A DNA stretch of 64,000 nucleotides from Corallococcus sp. NCRR (GTDB taxonomy: Bacteria > Myxococcota > Myxococcia > Myxococcales > Myxococcaceae): positions 3,658,001 to 3,722,000 of the forward strand of contig NZ_CP114039.1 in the NCBI RefSeq assembly GCF_026965535.1. The letters are read 5' to 3'. Both the position numbers and the translations under genes were made by a program. Below, in pieces: positions 2,551 to 11,293 of the stretch (position 1 is its first letter; the number at the start of each line of letters is the position of its first letter). The notes beneath the pieces are model-generated. The model searched no databases. It was not told the DNA's origin and saw nothing but the letters and a program-made list of their open reading frames with translations.

Positions 2551-2800
2551 CTTCGTGTTTCCAGACGCAAGGGGAATGTCAGACGCCCGGGGCACAGTGG
2601 ATCCCGGGTGCAGGACGGGCGGGCCGGGGACGTAGAGCGGCAAGAGGGCGGTCATGGAGCAAGAGCACTTCGCGCTGGGTGGTTTTCCGCGGTCACAGGG
2701 AGCGACCCCCGCTCGCGGTTCCATTCCGTTGCGGACGCGGCGTACGGAAGTGGGAAGGGAAGTGTCGCAGCGGGATCCCGCCGGTACAGTGCGCCCCGTC

Positions 2801-5047
2801 GTGAGCGCCACCCCTGCCCAACTTGCCTCTGTCGCCGTGGGCCGTCCCGTGCGCGGGGAGTTCACCTACCTGGTGCCGGAGGCGCTCGCCGGCAACCTCG
2901 CCCCGGGCCAGCGCGTGCTCGTGCCCTTCGGCCGGGGCATGGCGCTGGGCTTCTACCTGGGGCCCGCGAACGCGCCGGTGGAAGGGGGCGTTCGGCTCAA
3001 GCCCATCCAGCGCGTGCTGGAGGACTCGCCGTCCCTGCCCAAGGACCTCATCGCGCTCCTGCGCTTCACCGCGGAGCACTACCGCTATCCGCTGGGCGAG
3101 GTGATCCGCGGCGCGCTGCCGCCGGGCCTCTCCACCGCGGTGGATGAGAAGGAAGCCAGGCCGGACATCCAGTTCTTCGTGGAGGCGCTCGTCACGGAGC
3201 TGCCCCCCGCGCTCGCCCGCGCTCCGGCGCAGGCCGCGGTGCTCCAGTACCTCCTGGCGGTGGGCGGAAGGGCGCCGCTGGACGAGGTGACGCACGCCAT
3301 CCCCGGCGCGCGCGAGACGCTGAAGAAGCTGGCCACGCGCAAGTTCGTGAAGTGGGTGGAGGTGACGCTCCAGCCCGGTGTGCGCGAGGGCCTGGTGCAG
3401 AACCGCCCGGACCGCCTCACCCCGGAGCAGGCCCTGGCGGTGAAGGAGCTCCAGGGCGCCGTGGACGTGGGCGGCTTCCAGCCGTACCTCCTGCACGGCG
3501 TCACCGGCAGCGGCAAGACGGAGGTGTACCTGCGCGCGGTGGAGCACACGCTCGCGCGCGGCCTGGGCAGCCTGGTGCTGGTGCCCGAAATCGCGCTCAC
3601 GCCGCAACTGGTGGGGCGCTTCCGCAGCCGCTTCGGCGGCGACGTGGCGGTGCTGCACTCGGGGCTCAAGGACCGCGAGCGGCTGTTCCACTGGCAGGCG
3701 CTGCGCAAGGGCACGGTGAAGATCGCGGTCGGCGTGCGCTCCGCGGTGTTCGCGCCGGTGGAGCACCTGGGGCTCATCGTCGTGGACGAGGAGCACGACC
3801 CGTCCTTCAAGCAGGACGAGAAGCTGCGCTACCAGGCGCGCGACCTGGCGGTGGTGCGCGGCAAGCAGGCCGGCGCGGTGGTGGTGCTGGGCTCCGCGAC
3901 GCCTTCGCTGGAGACGCTCCAGAACACGCGCTCTGGCCGCTACAAGCTGATTGAACTGAAGAACCGCGTGGACGACCGGCCCATGCCCTCCATCAGCCTG
4001 GTGGACCTGCGCGTGGAGCGTCCGCGCGAGGGCCAGGTGACGGAAGAGGCGCCCATCCTCAGCCCGCAGATGCTCCAGGCCATGGAGGAGACGGTGGCCA
4101 AGGGGCAGCAGGTCATCCTGTTCCTCAACCGCCGCGGCCACAGCACCATCCTGCTGTGCGAGGTGTGCGGCCTGTCGCTCAAGTGCCACGACTGCGACGT
4201 GTGCATGACGCACCACCGCTCGCAGAACCGGGTGGTGTGCCACTACTGCGGCGTGGCGTTCCCCGTTCCGAACGCCTGCCGCGAGTGCACCGGCCCGCTG
4301 CTCAAGCTCGGCATCGGCACGGAGCGCGTGGAGGCGGAGGTCCTGGAGCGGATGCCACACGCACGCGTGGCGCGGCTGGACCGGGACTCCGCGACGAGCG
4401 CGGAGAAGCTCACGGAGCTCTTGGCGTCCTTCGCGCGGCGTGAAATCGACGTGCTGGTGGGCACCCAGATGGTGGCCAAGGGGCACGACTTCCCGGGCGT
4501 GACGCTGGTGTGCGTGGTGATGGCGGACACGTCCCTGGCGATTCCTGATTTCCGAGCCGCTGAGCGGACCTTCCACCTGTTGACCCAGGTGGCGGGGCGC
4601 GCGGGGCGCGGGAAGGACCCGGGCCGGGTGCTGGTGCAGACCTACAACCCGGACGCGGAGCCGGTGAGGCGGATGCTGGCGCACGACTTCGACGGGTTCT
4701 CCAAGCAGGAGCTGGAGTGGCGCAAGGCGCTGGCCTATCCGCCCTTCGCGCGCATGGCGGCCGTCCGGCTGGAGGGCGAGCACCCGGAGCAGACGGCGGG
4801 CGTGGCGCGCTTCCTGGGGAACCTGGTGGGACGCCACATGCCACCGGCGTCGGCGGGGGTGCGCCTGCTGGGTCCGGCCCTGGCGCCCATTGCCCGCATC
4901 CGGGGCAAGACGCGCTGGCAGTTGCTCCTGAAGGCGCCGACACATGCGGCGCTCGCCCCACTGCTCGCCCGGTTGGAGGCGGCGTTGGCGGATGTGCCGA
5001 ACGGAGTGAAGGTCGTCATCGACGTGGATCCCGGGGCCATGCTGTAG
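2801..5047 (+). CDS. priA: primosomal protein N' (replication restart helicase PriA)
   Basis: Restarts stalled replication forks by binding fork DNA, unwinding the lagging arm and loading the primosome. The 748 residues match the usual 730-750. After an N-terminal 3'-end-binding domain (R-G-E-F-T-Y-L-V-P) comes the helicase with Walker [13 protein letters not shown], Walker B D-E-E-H, and the zinc-binding insertion with eight Cys arranged as C-x2-C pairs (about residues 450-495). Helicase motifs V and VI ([11 protein letters not shown] and Q-V-A-G-R-A-G-R) follow. I chose the GTG at 2801 because the conserved protein begins S-A-T-P-A-Q; the ATG at 2654 would add 49 residues unlike any PriA. 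It ends 16 bases before the giant coiled-coil gene. Confidence 0.97.
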
Positions 5048-5063: not shown

Positions 5064-8000
5064 ATGGGCGCCTCGGTCCTCCTCGTACACGACGACATCG
5101 CCACCATCGCCGCCGTCCGGCGACTGCTGTCCCGCGAAGGGCACGAGGTCATCCTCGCGACCTCCGCCGCGGACGCGCTCATCGCTTTCGGGCATCACCT
5201 GCCGGAGCTCATCGTGCTCGCGCCGGGCGTGGAGAGCGACCGCGGGCGCGTGGTGCTGGAGGAGCTGGTGCAGCACCCCGAAGGCCACAAGGCGCGGGTG
5301 CTGCTCCTGAGTGAGGCCATCGAGGGCTTCAGCGCGCCGGTGGCGCCGCTGCCCCTGGACGGCCCGAGCTTCGTGACGCTGGTGGACACGTTGATCCGCG
5401 CGCCGGCGGAGGCGGATGGCTGGCGCGTGGTGGAGAACCGGACGCTGGGGGAGCCGGCGAAGGGGAGCGCCCCGGCGGACGAAGACTGGCATGTGACGGC
5501 GCCGCGCTCGGTGGGCGGGGACCCCGCGCTGGCGAACGCGCTGTTCGGGGACCTGGCGCCGCTGAACCAGACGGACTGGGAAGTGGCGGCGATGACGCGC
5601 GAGGAGCGCAGCGCGCACGCCGTGCACCAGCAGCGCGAGCGCAGCATGAACGCCGCGCTGGAGCAGGCGCACCTGGAAGTGGAGACGGAGGCCATCGCCT
5701 CCATCGACTCCGCGCTGTCGGTGGGCACGAAGTCGCAGTGGGCCGGAGCGGAGGGGGAGGGTGACTCCGGCGAGGCGTGGGGCGAGGAGGATCCGGACGC
5801 GAGCGTCGGCAGTGAGTGGGACGCGGAGCCGCCGAACGCGGAAGGGGCGGACGAGGGCCGTTCCTCGGAGGCGCGCACCACGTTGCGCTTCCCGTTCCCG
5901 AACGCCGAGGGCGAGAATGCGCCCGCCGAGGGGCGGCTCGCGTTCCGTGAGGAGCCGCTCACGCCGCCGGGACTGAAGCCGGTGAAGCCCGCGCCGAAGC
6001 TGGGGGACGAGGGGTTCTTCGACGTCGACTCGGACGAGGACGGCGGGGCGGCGAAGGCTGCGGAACCGGAGGGCTCGGAGCCGCTGGCGTGGAAGGAACT
6101 GGAGCCGGATCCGGAGCTGCGTGCGTCTCCGGGCGGCGTGGAGGATTCCGACGAGACGGACTTCGGTTCGGTCGCGGACGACGTGGCGGCGGAGGAGCGG
6201 GCCGCGGCTGTCGCGGCGAGTGCTCCGGAGGAGGACGCGCCCTCGGAGCCGACCGCGGAGGAGCTGGCGGCGGCGGGCCTGTCGAACTGGGATGTGCTGG
6301 AGGCGGACCTCAAGGCCTCCGCCGAGGCGCGCGAGCGGGACGAGGACTCCTCCTCGGACGACGCGAAGCCGGTGGGTTCGGACTGGTTCGATTCAGAGAC
6401 CGTCGAGGAGGCGAAGGAGGAGGGTTCCAAGCCCCTCCAGTGGGCGGAGCCCGCGAGCCCGGCAGATGCGGCACCCCCGAATCCAGCCAGGGCGGAGTCG
6501 CGCGAGGGTGGGACGGCGGACAGCGCCGCGCCGAAAGTGAATCCCGAGAGGCCGCTGCGTGTCGCGGCCCGTGTCCCGTTGCGCTCGTCGGGAAAGAGCA
6601 GCGCGGGCGTCGTGGCGACCGTGGGCGTCTCGTCCGCGAGCCCGGGCGATACGACAGGCGGCACGTCCACGCGTCCGGGCAACGAGTCCGGAGTGGGAGC
6701 CGAGGGCCTGAGCGACCCGTCCGGAGCTGGAGCGGCGAGGGCCAGCGGCACCGACGCGCATCCGGGAGACAAGGCCGGAGCAGGAGATGCGGCGTCGTCG
6801 CCACCGCAGGTGCCAGGCGGCCTGCAGCGGGCGAACAAGACGCGCGCCCAGGAGCAGGAAACCCCTGCTCCAGCGCGCACGGACGCAGCCGAGTCATCAT
6901 CGGACCTCGCCGCGGAGCTGGAATCGCTGCGTGAGGAGCTCGCGCTGGCCCACGCCGCCATCGAGGAGGCCGAGGCGCGAGCCGCGGACGCGGAAGCGCT
7001 GGCCGAATCGGAGCAGTCGCTCCGCGTCGAGCTGGAAGAGCGCATCGCGAGCGAAGAGCGAGCACGCGAAGACGCGCGGCTCGAAGCGGATGCCGAGGTC
7101 GAGGCCCGGAGCGCCGTGGAGGTGCGGGCCGAAGCGGAGGTCCACGCCCGCGCCCGCGCCGAGTCCCTGTTGAAGCAGGCCTCGGCGGCCAAGGAGGCCT
7201 CGGAAGTCCAGGCCGAATCGGCGACGGAGGCCCTCGCGGAGGTCGAGGCGCGGCTCGCCTCCGAGGCCGGAAGCCGCGTGGAGGCTGAAGCCCGCGCGGA
7301 GGCCGAGGCGCGTGACCGCCGTGAAGCCGAGGCCCTCGCGGAGATGGCCCGGCTCGAGATGGTCGAGCTCGAGAAGCGCCTCGCCACGGAGGTCCAGGCG
7401 CGCGAGGAGGCCGAGCTCCGGGCCCGCCAGGAAGCGCAGACGCGCGAGGAGGCCGAAGCCCGCGCCGAGCTGGAGCAGGCCGCGCGCACGGACGTGGAGG
7501 CGCGGCTCGAAGCCGAGATCGAGGCAAGACTCGCGGCCGAAGCCCGCGCGGAAGCGCGTCAGCGAGCACAAACCGACTCCGACACGGCGGAGAGCGAGGA
7601 CGCCGCGCTCCGTGCGGACCTGGAGTCGCGGCGCGCCGAGGCGGAGGCCAGGGCCGAGGCCGAGGCGAAGGCCCGCACCGCCGCCGAAGCGAAGGTGAAG
7701 CACTCCGCGCAGGCGCTGTCCCTGGTGGAGGTGCGAGCCCACCAGTTGGCCCAGTCGCTGGCCGAGTCCGAAGCGAAGTCGAAGCAGTCCGCGCAGGCGC
7801 TGGCCCAGGCGGAGACGCGGGTGCAGCAGGCCACGCAGGCGTTGGCGCAAGCCGAGGCGAAGGCGAAGCAGTCCGTGCAGGCCTTGGCGCAGATGGAAGC
7901 CAGGGCGCAGCAGCTGGCGCAGGTGCTGCTTCAGGGCGAAGCCAAGGCAAAACAGTCCGCCCAGGCCGTGAGCCAGGCCGAGGAGGCCCGAGCCGCCGCG

Positions 8001-10712
8001 GAAGCCACCGCCGAACGGAACGCCGAAGCCCTGGCGCAGGCGGAAGCCCGGGCGACGAAGGCCGAGGAAGCCCTGGCCGAAGCCCAGGTCCGCGCGGAAG
8101 AGGCCGAAGCGGCGAGGCAGCAGAACGAGACGCGCTTCGCGGAGACCCTGAGCCAGGCCAACGCCCGGATGGAGCAGCTCAAGCAGGCCCGCCTGCGAGC
8201 CGAAGCCCAGGCCGCGCAGCCAGCCGAAGCCCTGCTCCAGGCGGAAGCCCGGGTGGAGCAGCTGACGCAGGCCCTGAAGCAGGCCGAAGCGCGAGCCACC
8301 GAAAACACCGAGCAACTCAAGCAGGCCCAGGCCGAAGCCGAGGCCCGCGCGGAGCAACTCCAGCAGCTCCAGGCCAACTCCGGGACCCGCGAGGGCCAGT
8401 TCACGCAGGTCCAGGCCGAAGCCCAGGCCCGCATCGAACAGCTCAAGCAGGCGCTCACCGAAGCGGAAGCGCGAGCGGAGCAGTTCACGCAGGAGCGCAC
8501 GGAAGCGGAATCCCGCGCGGACCGGCTTGAGCAGGCACGCACCGAAGCCCAAGAGCGAATCGAGCAGCTCACCCAGGCGCGCACGGAAGCCGAAGCCCGC
8601 GCGGATCAGCTTGAGCAGGCACGCACCGAGGCCCAAGAGCGCATCGAGCAGCTCACGCAGGCACGAGCCGAAGCAGAGGCCCGTGCGGAGCAATCCCTCC
8701 AGGCGCGCACGGAAGTGGAAGCCCGCGCGGATCAACTCGCGCAAGCACACGCCGAAGCCGGGTCGCGCATCGAGCAGCTCACGCACGCACTCGCGGATGC
8801 CCAAGCGCGCATCGAGCAGCTCACGCAGGGGCGCGCCGAAGCCGAGTCGCGTGCGGAGCAGTCCACCCATGCGAGCACCGATGCCCAGGCGCGCATCGAG
8901 CAGCTCACGCAGGGGCGCGCCGAAGCCGAGGCGCGCATCAAGGAACTCACGCAGGCTCGCACGGAAGCCGAGTCGCGCGCGGAGCAGTCCACTCACGCGA
9001 GCACCGAGGCCCAGGCGCGCATTGAGCAGCTCACACAGGCGCTGACCCAGGCCCAGGCCCGGGCGGATCAACTCGCGCAGTCCCTCGCCCAGGCGGAGTC
9101 CCGCGCCGAGCAGTCCACGCACGACGCGGACGAGCTCGCCCGGACCCGCCTGGCCCAGGCCGAACAGGCCCGCGCCGAAGCGGAAGCCACCGCTGAACAG
9201 CAGCTCCAGGCCCGCACCGCCGCGGAAACCCGCGCCCTCCAGGCCGAGCAGAAGGCCGCCGAAGCCACCGCCAGGGCCACGTCCGAAGGCCGCCTGCGCA
9301 CCGTGCTGGAAGTCCGCCTCGACTCCGAGGCCCGCGCGCGCCAGGACATCGAGGCCCGCCTCGAAACCGAGTCCCAGGCCCGCACCGCCGCGGAGTCCCG
9401 CCTCGCCGCCGAGACCCAGGCGCGCACCGAAGCCGAAGCCCGCGCCCGCTCCGAATCCACCGACCTCACGCAGGCCCGAGACACCCTGCAAGCACAGCTC
9501 GACCAGCTCCGCGAGGAGTTCGCCCGCGAGCGCGAGACCCGCACCCGGCTCGAAGCCGAAGCCGTCGAACAGCGCCTCCAGGCCGAACGCGAGCGCGCGG
9601 AGCTCGAAGCCCGCGCGCAGCGGGACGCGGAAGAAGCCGCGGCCCAGGCCCGCGCCACCATCATCCCGCTCGAATCGCCTGGCCGTCCGGAGATGGCGGT
9701 GGCCCGCAGCGGCAGCCTCACGCAGGAGGGCCTCGCGCGCCTCATCCTGCGGCTCTGCGACGCGCGCATGGAGGTGCGCCTGGAGCTCAAGGTGATGAAC
9801 GCCTTGCGCGTCCTCTGGCTGCGCGATGGAACCCTCGTCGGCGCCGCGTCCTCCGCGCAGGGCGAGTCCCTCGTCGACCGCGCCCGCGCGGACGGCCTCA
9901 TCGACGCGCGCCAGGAAGCCGAGCTGCGGCTCGTGCGCAGCGCCACCACCGGCACGCTGCTGGAAGCCCTGCGCGGGCGCGGCTACGTGCGCGAAGCCGA
10001 ATCCGTCCCGCTGGTCCAGCGCTACACCGAACAGGTCTTCCTGGACGCGCTCTCGGAGCCCTCCACGCTCTACCGCCTGGTGCCAGAGCCCGCGCCCCAT
10101 GAGGTCGCGCTCGCCGCCGCCACGCGCCCGCCGCTGCACCTGCTCGCGGAAGGGCTGCGCAACACGCTCACCGCCGAATCACTCCTGGACGCGGCGGGCT
10201 CCCTGCGCGCCCAGGTCTCCCGAGGCGACGCGCACATGCCCCCCGCGGACTTCGGCCTCTCCTCTCGCGAACTCCAACTCCTCCAGGCCGTGGACGGAGA
10301 ACGCACGCTGGAGTCACTGCTCCTGGGCGCGGGCCTGCCGCAGGACGGCGCGCTCAAGACGCTCGCGGTGGCGCGGACGCTGGGCCTCATCGCGCTGCAT
10401 CCGCCGTCGGAGGACGCGCACGGCGGCCTGCCGCCGGAACTGGACGTTCACCGCCTGGAGGCCAAGTTCGAGGAGATCCAGGACGCGGACTACTTCACCG
10501 TCTTGGGGCTCGCACGCTCGGCCGGCAGCGAGGAGGTCAAGCGGGCCTACGCACTGCTCGCCGCCGAGTTCCACCCGCTGCGCTTCGCCGGTCATCCGGA
10601 CCCCGCGCTCCAGCACCGGGCGCAGCAGATCCGCGCGGTGTTGACGGAGGCCGCGCGGGCGTTGGGAGACGACCGCCTGCGGGGCGAGTACGCCCGTAAT
10701 CTGCTCGACTGA
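5064..10712 (+). CDS. giant pseudo-receiver / coiled-coil / DUF4388-like / J-like protein
   Basis: 1,882 residues in four parts. Residues 1-115 are a response-regulator receiver fold (acidic H-D-D near residue 10) in which the phospho-acceptor Asp is replaced (L-I-V-L-A) and the conserved Lys is absent, so a pseudo-receiver. Residues about 120-600 are a long acidic, low-complexity linker. Residues about 610-1525 are a continuous coiled coil rich in A, E, R and Q with 14- and 28-residue repeats. Residues about 1540-1780 resemble the DUF4388/PATAN-type domain found in many myxobacterial regulators. Residues about 1800-1882 look like a J domain (Y-F-T-V-L-G-L, then A-E-F-H-P-L in place of H-P-D). 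A pseudo-receiver plus long coil is the plan of the gliding-motility proteins AglZ and FrzS, so a polar scaffold is plausible; this is inference. It overlaps the frame before def (TGATG). Confidence 0.93.
8764..9060 (+). repeat. 42-bp coding tandem repeat inside the coiled coil
   Basis: A DNA-level repeat: the 15-mer around GCGCATCGAGCAGCT recurs with its A at 8769, 8811, 8895 and 9021, that is at spacings of 42, 84 and 126 bases. An 84-bp pair further upstream (about 8517 and 8601) shares long near-identical stretches. 42 bp encode 14 residues, exactly two heptads, so unit gain or loss keeps the coil in register. Confidence 0.8.
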
Positions 10713-10743
10713 TGCCCGGTGGAACGGTTGCCCGTCGCGGTCC

Positions 10744-10765
10744 GGAGGGGTTAAGAATCCCCTCC
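10744..10765 (+). promoter_or_regulatory. hairpin that sequesters the def Shine-Dalgarno
   Basis: GGAGGGG (10744-10750) and CCCCTCC (10759-10765) form a perfect 7-bp stem around the AT-rich loop TTAAGAAT. The left arm is the only Shine-Dalgarno-like sequence and the right arm touches the ATG of def at 10766. The dyad is seen in the sequence; a role in damping translation initiation is inference. Confidence 0.5.
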
Positions 10766-11293
10766 ATGGTTCGCGAGATTCTCATCTGGCCCGACCCCAT
10801 CCTGAAGCAGAAGGCCAAGCCGGTGGCGAAGGTGGACGACAAGGTCCGCGCGCTCATCAAGGACATGTTCGAGACCATGTACGCTGCCGAGGGCGTCGGT
10901 CTCGCCGCCCCGCAGGTGGGCATCCTCCAGCGCATCATCGTCCTGGACACCCGGCCACAGCAGCCGGAGTCCAAGCCCCTGGCGATGATCAACCCGGAGT
11001 TCGTCGCGCTCGAAGGGGAGACGACCTACACGGAGGGCTGCCTCTCCATCCCCGGTGAAGCCGAGGACGTGGACCGCGCCGCCGTCGCCACCGTGCGCTA
11101 CCTGGACGAAGAGGGCCAGGAGCAGACGCTGCGCTGTGACGGCCTGCTGGCCATCGCCGTGCAGCACGAGACGGACCACCTGGACGGCACCGTCTTCGTG
11201 GACCACGTCTCCACGCTCAAGCGCGAGTTCATCCGCAAGCGCATGAAGAAGCTCAAGGCCTCGCGCGACCAGGGCGCTCCGGCGTCCGCTTAA
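10766..11293 (+). CDS. def: peptide deformylase
   Basis: Removes the N-formyl group from nascent proteins at the ribosome. 175 residues, usual length. All three signature motifs are present: G-V-G-L-A-A-P-Q-V-G (residues about 46-55), E-G-C-L-S with the metal-binding Cys, and Q-H-E-T-D-H-L-D-G with the two His ligands and catalytic Glu. The ATG at 10766 gives the normal N-terminus M-V-R-E-I-L-I-W-P-D-P; an ATG at 10712, overlapping the stop of the giant gene, would add 18 residues and is less likely. Its stop codon overlaps that of nth, which runs the other way. Confidence 0.96.
   Translation: MVREILIWPDPILKQKAKPVAKVDDKVRALIKDMFETMYAAEGVGLAAPQVGILQRIIVLDTRPQQPESKPLAMINPEFVALEGETTYTEGCLSIPGEAEDVDRAAVATVRYLDEEGQEQTLRCDGLLAIAVQHETDHLDGTVFVDHVSTLKREFIRKRMKKLKASRDQGAPASA

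Follow-up and report, generated by a model that had tools for sequence, protein, structure and literature searches.

The window analyzed here is a 64,000-nucleotide stretch of DNA from Corallococcus sp. NCRR, and it contains an ATG-initiated open reading frame on the forward strand that encodes a protein of 1,882 residues; throughout, X denotes both this gene and its product. The near neighbors of X are galU, a GST gene, priA, def and nth (the last labeled from its sequence). Read from the N-terminus, X is composed of a pseudo-receiver, an acidic linker, a spacer of approximately 915 residues that are mostly helix-forming, DUF4388 and a J-like domain that carries H-P-L. The features of the locus are as follows:

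2654..5047, + strand: priA, the conserved upstream neighbor, 16 bp before X (family match, alignment, neighborhood)
5064..10712, + strand: gene X, 1,882 aa, ATG start (open reading frame, ortholog family, neighborhood)
5064..5408, + strand: pseudo-receiver, residues 1-115 (Pfam, predicted structure, fold comparison, alignment)
5220-5222, + strand: A53, at the phospho-Asp site (alignment)
5349-5351, + strand: L96, at the Lys site (alignment)
5418..6923, + strand: acidic low-complexity linker, residues 119-620 (composition; indels not heptad-biased)
6924..9668, + strand: helix-forming spacer, residues 621-1535 (composition, repeats, periodicity)
7761..9113, + strand: heptad (3.5-residue) part of the spacer, approximately residues 900-1350 (periodicity above shuffles)
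9708..10163, + strand: DUF4388 domain, residues 1549-1700 (Pfam, predicted structure)
10164..10433, + strand: conserved, largely helical region between DUF4388 and the J-like domain, approximately residues 1701-1790 (alignment, model)
10488..10691, + strand: J-like domain, residues 1809-1876 (Pfam, model, fold comparison, alignment)
10572-10580, + strand: H-P-L replacing H-P-D, residues 1837-1839 (alignment)
10728..10756, + strand: promoter-like pair TTGCCC, 17 bp, TTAAGA before def (by eye)
10766..11293, + strand: def (peptide deformylase), the downstream neighbor (start at the conserved MVREILIWPDP)

Full-length orthologs in many genomes rule out that the open reading frame at 5064-10712 is a chance frame. 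When full-length X was compared with Pfam, Response_reg (residues 5-85) scored 20.3 bits against a cut-off of 30.2, DUF4388 (1549-1700) 23.4 bits against 25, and DnaJ (1809-1876) 27.7 bits against 27.8. Scanned by themselves, the C-terminal 343 residues gave DnaJ at 30.4 bits and DUF4388 at 29.1 bits, both above the Pfam cut-offs, in agreement with the DUF4388-like end proposed in an earlier note on this DNA, whereas the receiver by itself reached 24.6 bits, still below its cut-off. Among orthologs of X, Pfam matches at E up to 0.01 were obtained for DUF4388 in 35/35, DnaJ in 33/35 and Response_reg in 31/32. Given that the same domains recur across the orthologs, and that the C-terminal pair passes when scanned separately, the domains of X are more than chance matches.

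Structure prediction of the two ends, which the earlier note had proposed as a check, returned a receiver fold at the N-terminus and a J domain at the C-terminus. The receiver model, based on 32 sequences, has a pLDDT of 90.4 and superimposes on DivK with a Z of 18.9 and an rmsd of 1.8 over 114 residues; a Foldseek search with the same model placed the FrzS receiver (2gkg) at rank 49. As that note had claimed, the phospho-Asp and the Lys are missing: alignment puts A53 and L96 at these sites, and a usable Asp was sought in X and is not present. The D10-D11 acid pair and S83 at the Ser/Thr site are retained, and V93 occupies the K-3 position, at which FrzS carries its switch Tyr. In the model, strand 78-82 runs to helix 100-112 without helix alpha4 in between. 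PMC12632262 defines a pseudo-receiver as a receiver in which at least one of D, DD, T and K is missing, and X, with its receiver fold and the A53 and L96 substitutions, belongs under this definition.

We compared the receivers in 48 aligned rows, comprising 46 X-type genes with a readable N-terminus and two reduced forms described below; five rows from other classes that have no match to the receiver profile are included in this number, and ortholog loci whose N-terminus falls off the contig are left out. The five-residue active site is complete in 0/48. The phospho-Asp is found in seven (L090, L091, L095 (family f11), and L099-L102 (f24/f25)) and the Lys in three (L062, L090 and L095), while the Ser/Thr site is occupied by Gly in 45, by Ser in 2 and by a gap in 1. 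The seven Asp-bearing receivers, which come from other classes and two of which also have the Lys, contain a stretch of alpha4 length in the alignment, which favors the view that the protein is a phospho-responsive regulator in some lineages and is secondarily dead among the relatives of X. However, in all seven the acid pair is not intact and the Ser/Thr site is Gly, and we consider this explanation very improbable. Because these other-class receivers keep alpha4, as judged by length in the alignments, its predicted loss in X looks derived within the class.

The model of the C-terminal piece, based on 35 sequences, has a pLDDT of 90.0 and a pTM of 0.71, with the J domain near residues 264-343 of the piece. 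This domain matches 6rzy_A (Z 10.3, rmsd 2.0 over 70) and HscB, 3bvo_A (Z 10.2). DUF4388 (PF14332) we take to be the PATAN domain, i.e. the domain of the PatA N-terminus. With the DUF4388 domain and the helical region that follows it, no Foldseek match was found at E up to 0.001, and the VIA structural list for the C-terminal model is filled by J-domain matches and says little about the DUF4388 fold. KICSTOR and GATOR1 were considered as fold relatives of the C-terminus and rejected, as their Z of about 7 lies within the noise described for the tool. At E up to 0.01, the Corallococcus genome of X (G000) has 19 places that match DUF4388, and genome G191 has one.

The earlier note had read a changed H-P-D in the J-like end, and H-P-L at residues 1837-1839 bears this out. 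HPD is present in 2 of the 36 class alignment rows and changed in 34, X included, with various substitutes, and it was seen in none of the 18 other-class orthologs (L085-L102) inspected by eye. It is intact in the distant orthologs L064 and L070 (HPDRF, HPDRY), whose nearest relatives in the tree (L053 and L063) do not have it. The J fold of the model and the intact motifs of L064 and L070 could be taken to indicate an active DnaK co-chaperone, the other domains of which choose its clients, but the change of HPD in nearly all class rows, including X, and to no single substitute, makes such an activity most unlikely. Based on these alignments, remnants of the ancestral activities may survive in certain lineages, since HPD is kept in two orthologs, the Asp in seven receivers, and Asp together with Lys in two (L090 and L095). 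Separately, the region of a J-like paralog match at L160 (2276-7501, - strand) contains a ERLAEEARLAELARIEA helical frame that is long and highly repetitive and whose end appears TPR-like by eye.

Between the two ends, the acidic linker described in the earlier note is evident at residues 119-620, which are 21% D/E and 8% K/R. Its 900-residue coil stands in part: residues 621-1535 are helix-forming, contain few prolines (1053 and 1535) and are in part built of 14-residue, or 42-bp, repeats, but heptads are confined to approximately residues 900-1350. It is only in three segments spanning this heptad-bearing stretch of approximately 450 residues that hydrophobic periodicity of approximately 3.5 residues rises above that of shuffled sequences; no such periodicity above shuffles was found in segments 621-760 and 1350-1535, and segment 760-900 has its peak at 3.81. 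Were the rod of approximately 915 residues a single unbroken helix with a rise of 0.15 nm per residue, it would by simple arithmetic measure approximately 135 nm. We also examined indels of at least 4 residues in 18 sequences, after five loci without a readable N-terminus had been dropped. In the coil, 39% of pairwise cases are multiples of 7 versus 14% in the linker, the pairs not being independent. This heptad bias is consistent with a coiled coil; slippage at the 42-bp DNA repeat is another possible cause.

Across 32 class orthologs, the number of residues between the two ends varies from 67 (L070) to 1,446 (L036), and in several orthologs the spacer is not clearly helical, e.g. L060 and L070, in which the longest runs free of P and G are 36 and 12 residues, respectively. 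The coil can therefore be ruled out as the conserved core of X, as one ortholog makes do with a spacer of 67 residues and the two reduced forms have none.

The distribution of X was surveyed in 195 Myxococcota genomes, 147 of them in the class. A profile of the C-terminal module of X finds some match in 185/195 genomes at E up to 1e-12, paralogs included. Presence of X was scored by a hand count that required a best match of at least 170 bits, a threshold chosen to lie slightly higher than the score of one paralog (164 bits); L065-L069 and L103 are paralogs and were removed before orthologs were counted. By this measure X is present in 138/195 genomes, with 117/147 in the class and 21/48 outside it. 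Within the class, X is found in 94/96 genomes of f1 (the family of the Corallococcus source), 16/24 of f3, 2/3 of f6, 1/1 of f7, 2/5 of f8 and 2/2 of f10, and in none of f2, f4, f5 and f9, although some of the absences fall in incomplete genomes. Named carriers include Corallococcus, Myxococcus, Pyxidicoccus, Archangium and Hyalangium, and a contig of M. xanthus AM003 (L123) contains the C-terminal part. One ortholog, 84% identical to X and close to those of Myxococcus, comes from a record titled Comamonas sp. KCTC 72670 (L126); probably the record is mistitled or its assembly is a mixture. A 24,448 aa open frame at the paralog match L003 was dismissed, as all six frames of the 3.5 kb locus hold stops.

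In a tree of the C-terminal module (57 rows, leaving out L056, L073, L040 and L045), the orthologs group largely by taxonomic family and the paralogs lie apart, with two long paralog branches that meet and are of unsure placement. L061 contains undetermined bases and was left out of alignments A1 and A2. No described ortholog of X and no locus tag for the M. xanthus ortholog were found in the open-access literature, and the accessible parts of PMC9239167, PMC8316039 and PMC3986340 do not contain a description of X. The family is an old one and apparently unstudied. Given that the gene is absent from many genomes, its job is not a universal one, and the existence of genomes without X means that its deletion may be feasible.

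The conserved neighbors of X are priA and def, and not known motility genes, and neither this setting nor the dispensable coil lends support to the polar or cytoskeletal organizer that the earlier note put forward. We surveyed 54 ortholog loci, in which distances were taken between stop-to-stop frames and are approximate. Where at least 3.5 kb of upstream sequence was available (42 loci), 35 have priA on the same strand no more than 600 bp away, 4 have it at a greater distance, and in 3 no priA was found; where at least 1.5 kb was available downstream (51 loci), 36 have def no more than 600 bp away, 2 have it at a greater distance, and in 13 no def was found. Both genes are close to X in 24 of the 39 loci with room on both sides, and the arrangement spans several classes. 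These frequencies are what speaks for X as an accessory factor of replication restart or of nascent-protein processing, tied to PriA or Def, and the presence of priA next door could be a sign that X has to do with DNA or translation and not with cell architecture. Against this, gene order by itself is weak evidence, def was not found downstream in the 13 loci just mentioned, and def is preceded by its own promoter-like sequence, recognized by eye. Between the promoter-like pair and the def start codon lie 9 bp, and by eye similar pairs precede def in many f1 loci; transcription of def may therefore start at a promoter separate from X and give a nearly leaderless transcript. A stricter consensus promoter scan reported no site.

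Loci that lack X bear on the same point. We searched 24 genomes in which X is absent or doubtful for priA, and 16 loci without full-length X were examined. The priA and def genes are within about 150 bp of one another in 8 of these and about 750 bp apart in 1, def was not found in 5 (one at a contig edge), and a reduced gene lies between them in 2. The priA-def pair does not need X, as the two genes are adjacent without it in 8/16 loci, and we find a role tied to PriA or Def improbable. The reduced gene of G022 (L146, 7085-8563, - strand) encodes about 298 residues, with a pseudo-receiver and a J domain without HPD, and has no DUF4388. That of G191 (L151, 7181-7888, - strand) encodes 236 residues, with a J-like end that scores 33.5 bits and has no HPD; its N-terminal half is receiver-like by eye, but is not matched by the receiver profile (-1.5 bits).

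Alignments and structure models together establish the loss of both catalytic sites in X, the conserved ends, the variable spacer, the wide distribution and the priA/def locus. Two ends that are conserved over a large part of the phylum and that in X cannot carry out their parental chemistry, separated by a spacer free to vary in length, are what would be expected of a constitutive adaptor, and we suggest, with a probability of roughly 55%, that X is a two-ended tether and not a switch. The N-terminal pseudo-receiver would serve as a fixed protein-binding head with no phospho-Asp switch, and the DUF4388 and J-like module as a second fixed binding head with no HPD to trigger DnaK. The linker and the expandable helix-forming rod would set the distance between the heads, if length matters, and the rod, which is partly coiled coil in the Corallococcus lineage, probably dimerizes them. 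More tentatively, X may be a doubly dead, Myxococcota-wide adaptor in which the pseudo-receiver and the HPD-less J domain form an irreducible pair and lineages have stretched the rod from a near-zero length to about 1,450 residues as an evolvable ruler or tether inside the cell.

If correct, this would be an unstudied scaffold gene located beside housekeeping genes in the phylum to which the model gliding and swarming bacteria belong. The orthologs would then offer a natural length series, from a near-zero spacer to a rod of approximately 915 residues, in which to ask what role is left to a pseudo-receiver and a pseudo-J domain that cannot switch, and whether selection acts on the length of the rod. 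Breadth of distribution alone does not separate X from gliding, as gliding genes too, in part, occur in several myxobacterial groups and in Bdellovibrio, according to the portion of PMC3169522 available.

Should a single partner of the tether have to be guessed, the likeliest would be the polar type IV pilus/polarity machinery, given reports that the pilus motor is a target of other PATAN proteins. Cyanobacterial PATAN response regulators are reported to bind PilB1 or act on pili (PMC7690835, in excerpt), some mglA genes have PATAN genes nearby (PMC4316618, in excerpt), and the proteins that co-occur with SgmX include two of the PATAN type (PMC11580455, in excerpt). X could then be a FrzS-like scaffold of type IV pili or polarity, one head being held at the leading cell pole while the DUF4388/PATAN head recruits or tunes the extension ATPase PilB. 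A PilM match (E up to 1e-20) is found in 137 of the 138 X-bearing genomes, the exception being G128. However, PilM is above the cut-off in 178/195 genomes, including most families that lack X, and co-occurrence with pili therefore does not discriminate. The reading also depends on the presumed equivalence of DUF4388 and PATAN, and it fits poorly with a receiver modeled without alpha4 and carrying V93 at the position of the FrzS switch Tyr. According to PMC1974792, Asp phosphorylation does not control FrzS, whose pseudo-receiver retains the Lys, the switch Tyr102 and a strained alpha4 and precedes a 258-residue coil; FrzS requires Tyr102 and His92 at its output face; the excerpted PMC12632262 has FrzS binding SgmX through its alpha3-beta4-alpha4 surface. 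Overall, we regard this specific pilus role as unlikely, though less so than a tie to PriA or Def, and retain the constitutive tether as the preferred reading.

FrzS of Myxococcus xanthus and X both start with a pseudo-receiver that is followed by coiled coil, the arrangement typical of FrzS and AglZ, and we know of no DUF4388 or J domain in FrzS. Unlike FrzS, X has V93 and L96, has no alpha4 in the model and ends in DUF4388 and J-like domains, and equivalents of the FrzS output face (alpha4, His92 and Tyr102) are not seen in it. The missing alpha4 of the model and V93 instead of Tyr place the receiver of X outside the FrzS type, although it could still be a binding module. The earlier note had proposed just such a module, as in AglZ and FrzS; with the phosphorylation residues missing, binding is plausible, but without a modeled alpha4 the analogy to FrzS is loose. 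AglZ likewise combines a receiver with a very long coiled coil. A 1,561-residue frame in the genome of X (L159) presumably encodes an AglZ-like protein; its receiver is above the Pfam cut-off, whereas that of X is below, it has coil matches as well, and neither DUF4388 nor DnaJ was found in it at E up to 0.05. The view of the earlier note that no known member of these families has the architecture of X thus holds for the AglZ-like protein of the same genome and for the open-access literature searched. The PATAN-CheY regulators PixE, LsiR and PixG of Synechocystis resemble X in joining a receiver to a PATAN-type domain, if DUF4388 is indeed PATAN, and to our knowledge such response regulators have neither a helical rod nor a J-like domain. 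Finally, X shares the J fold of DnaJ and HscB (Z about 10 to 6rzy_A and to 3bvo_A), and differs from both in that HPD is replaced and the J domain is fused to a receiver and a DUF4388 domain.
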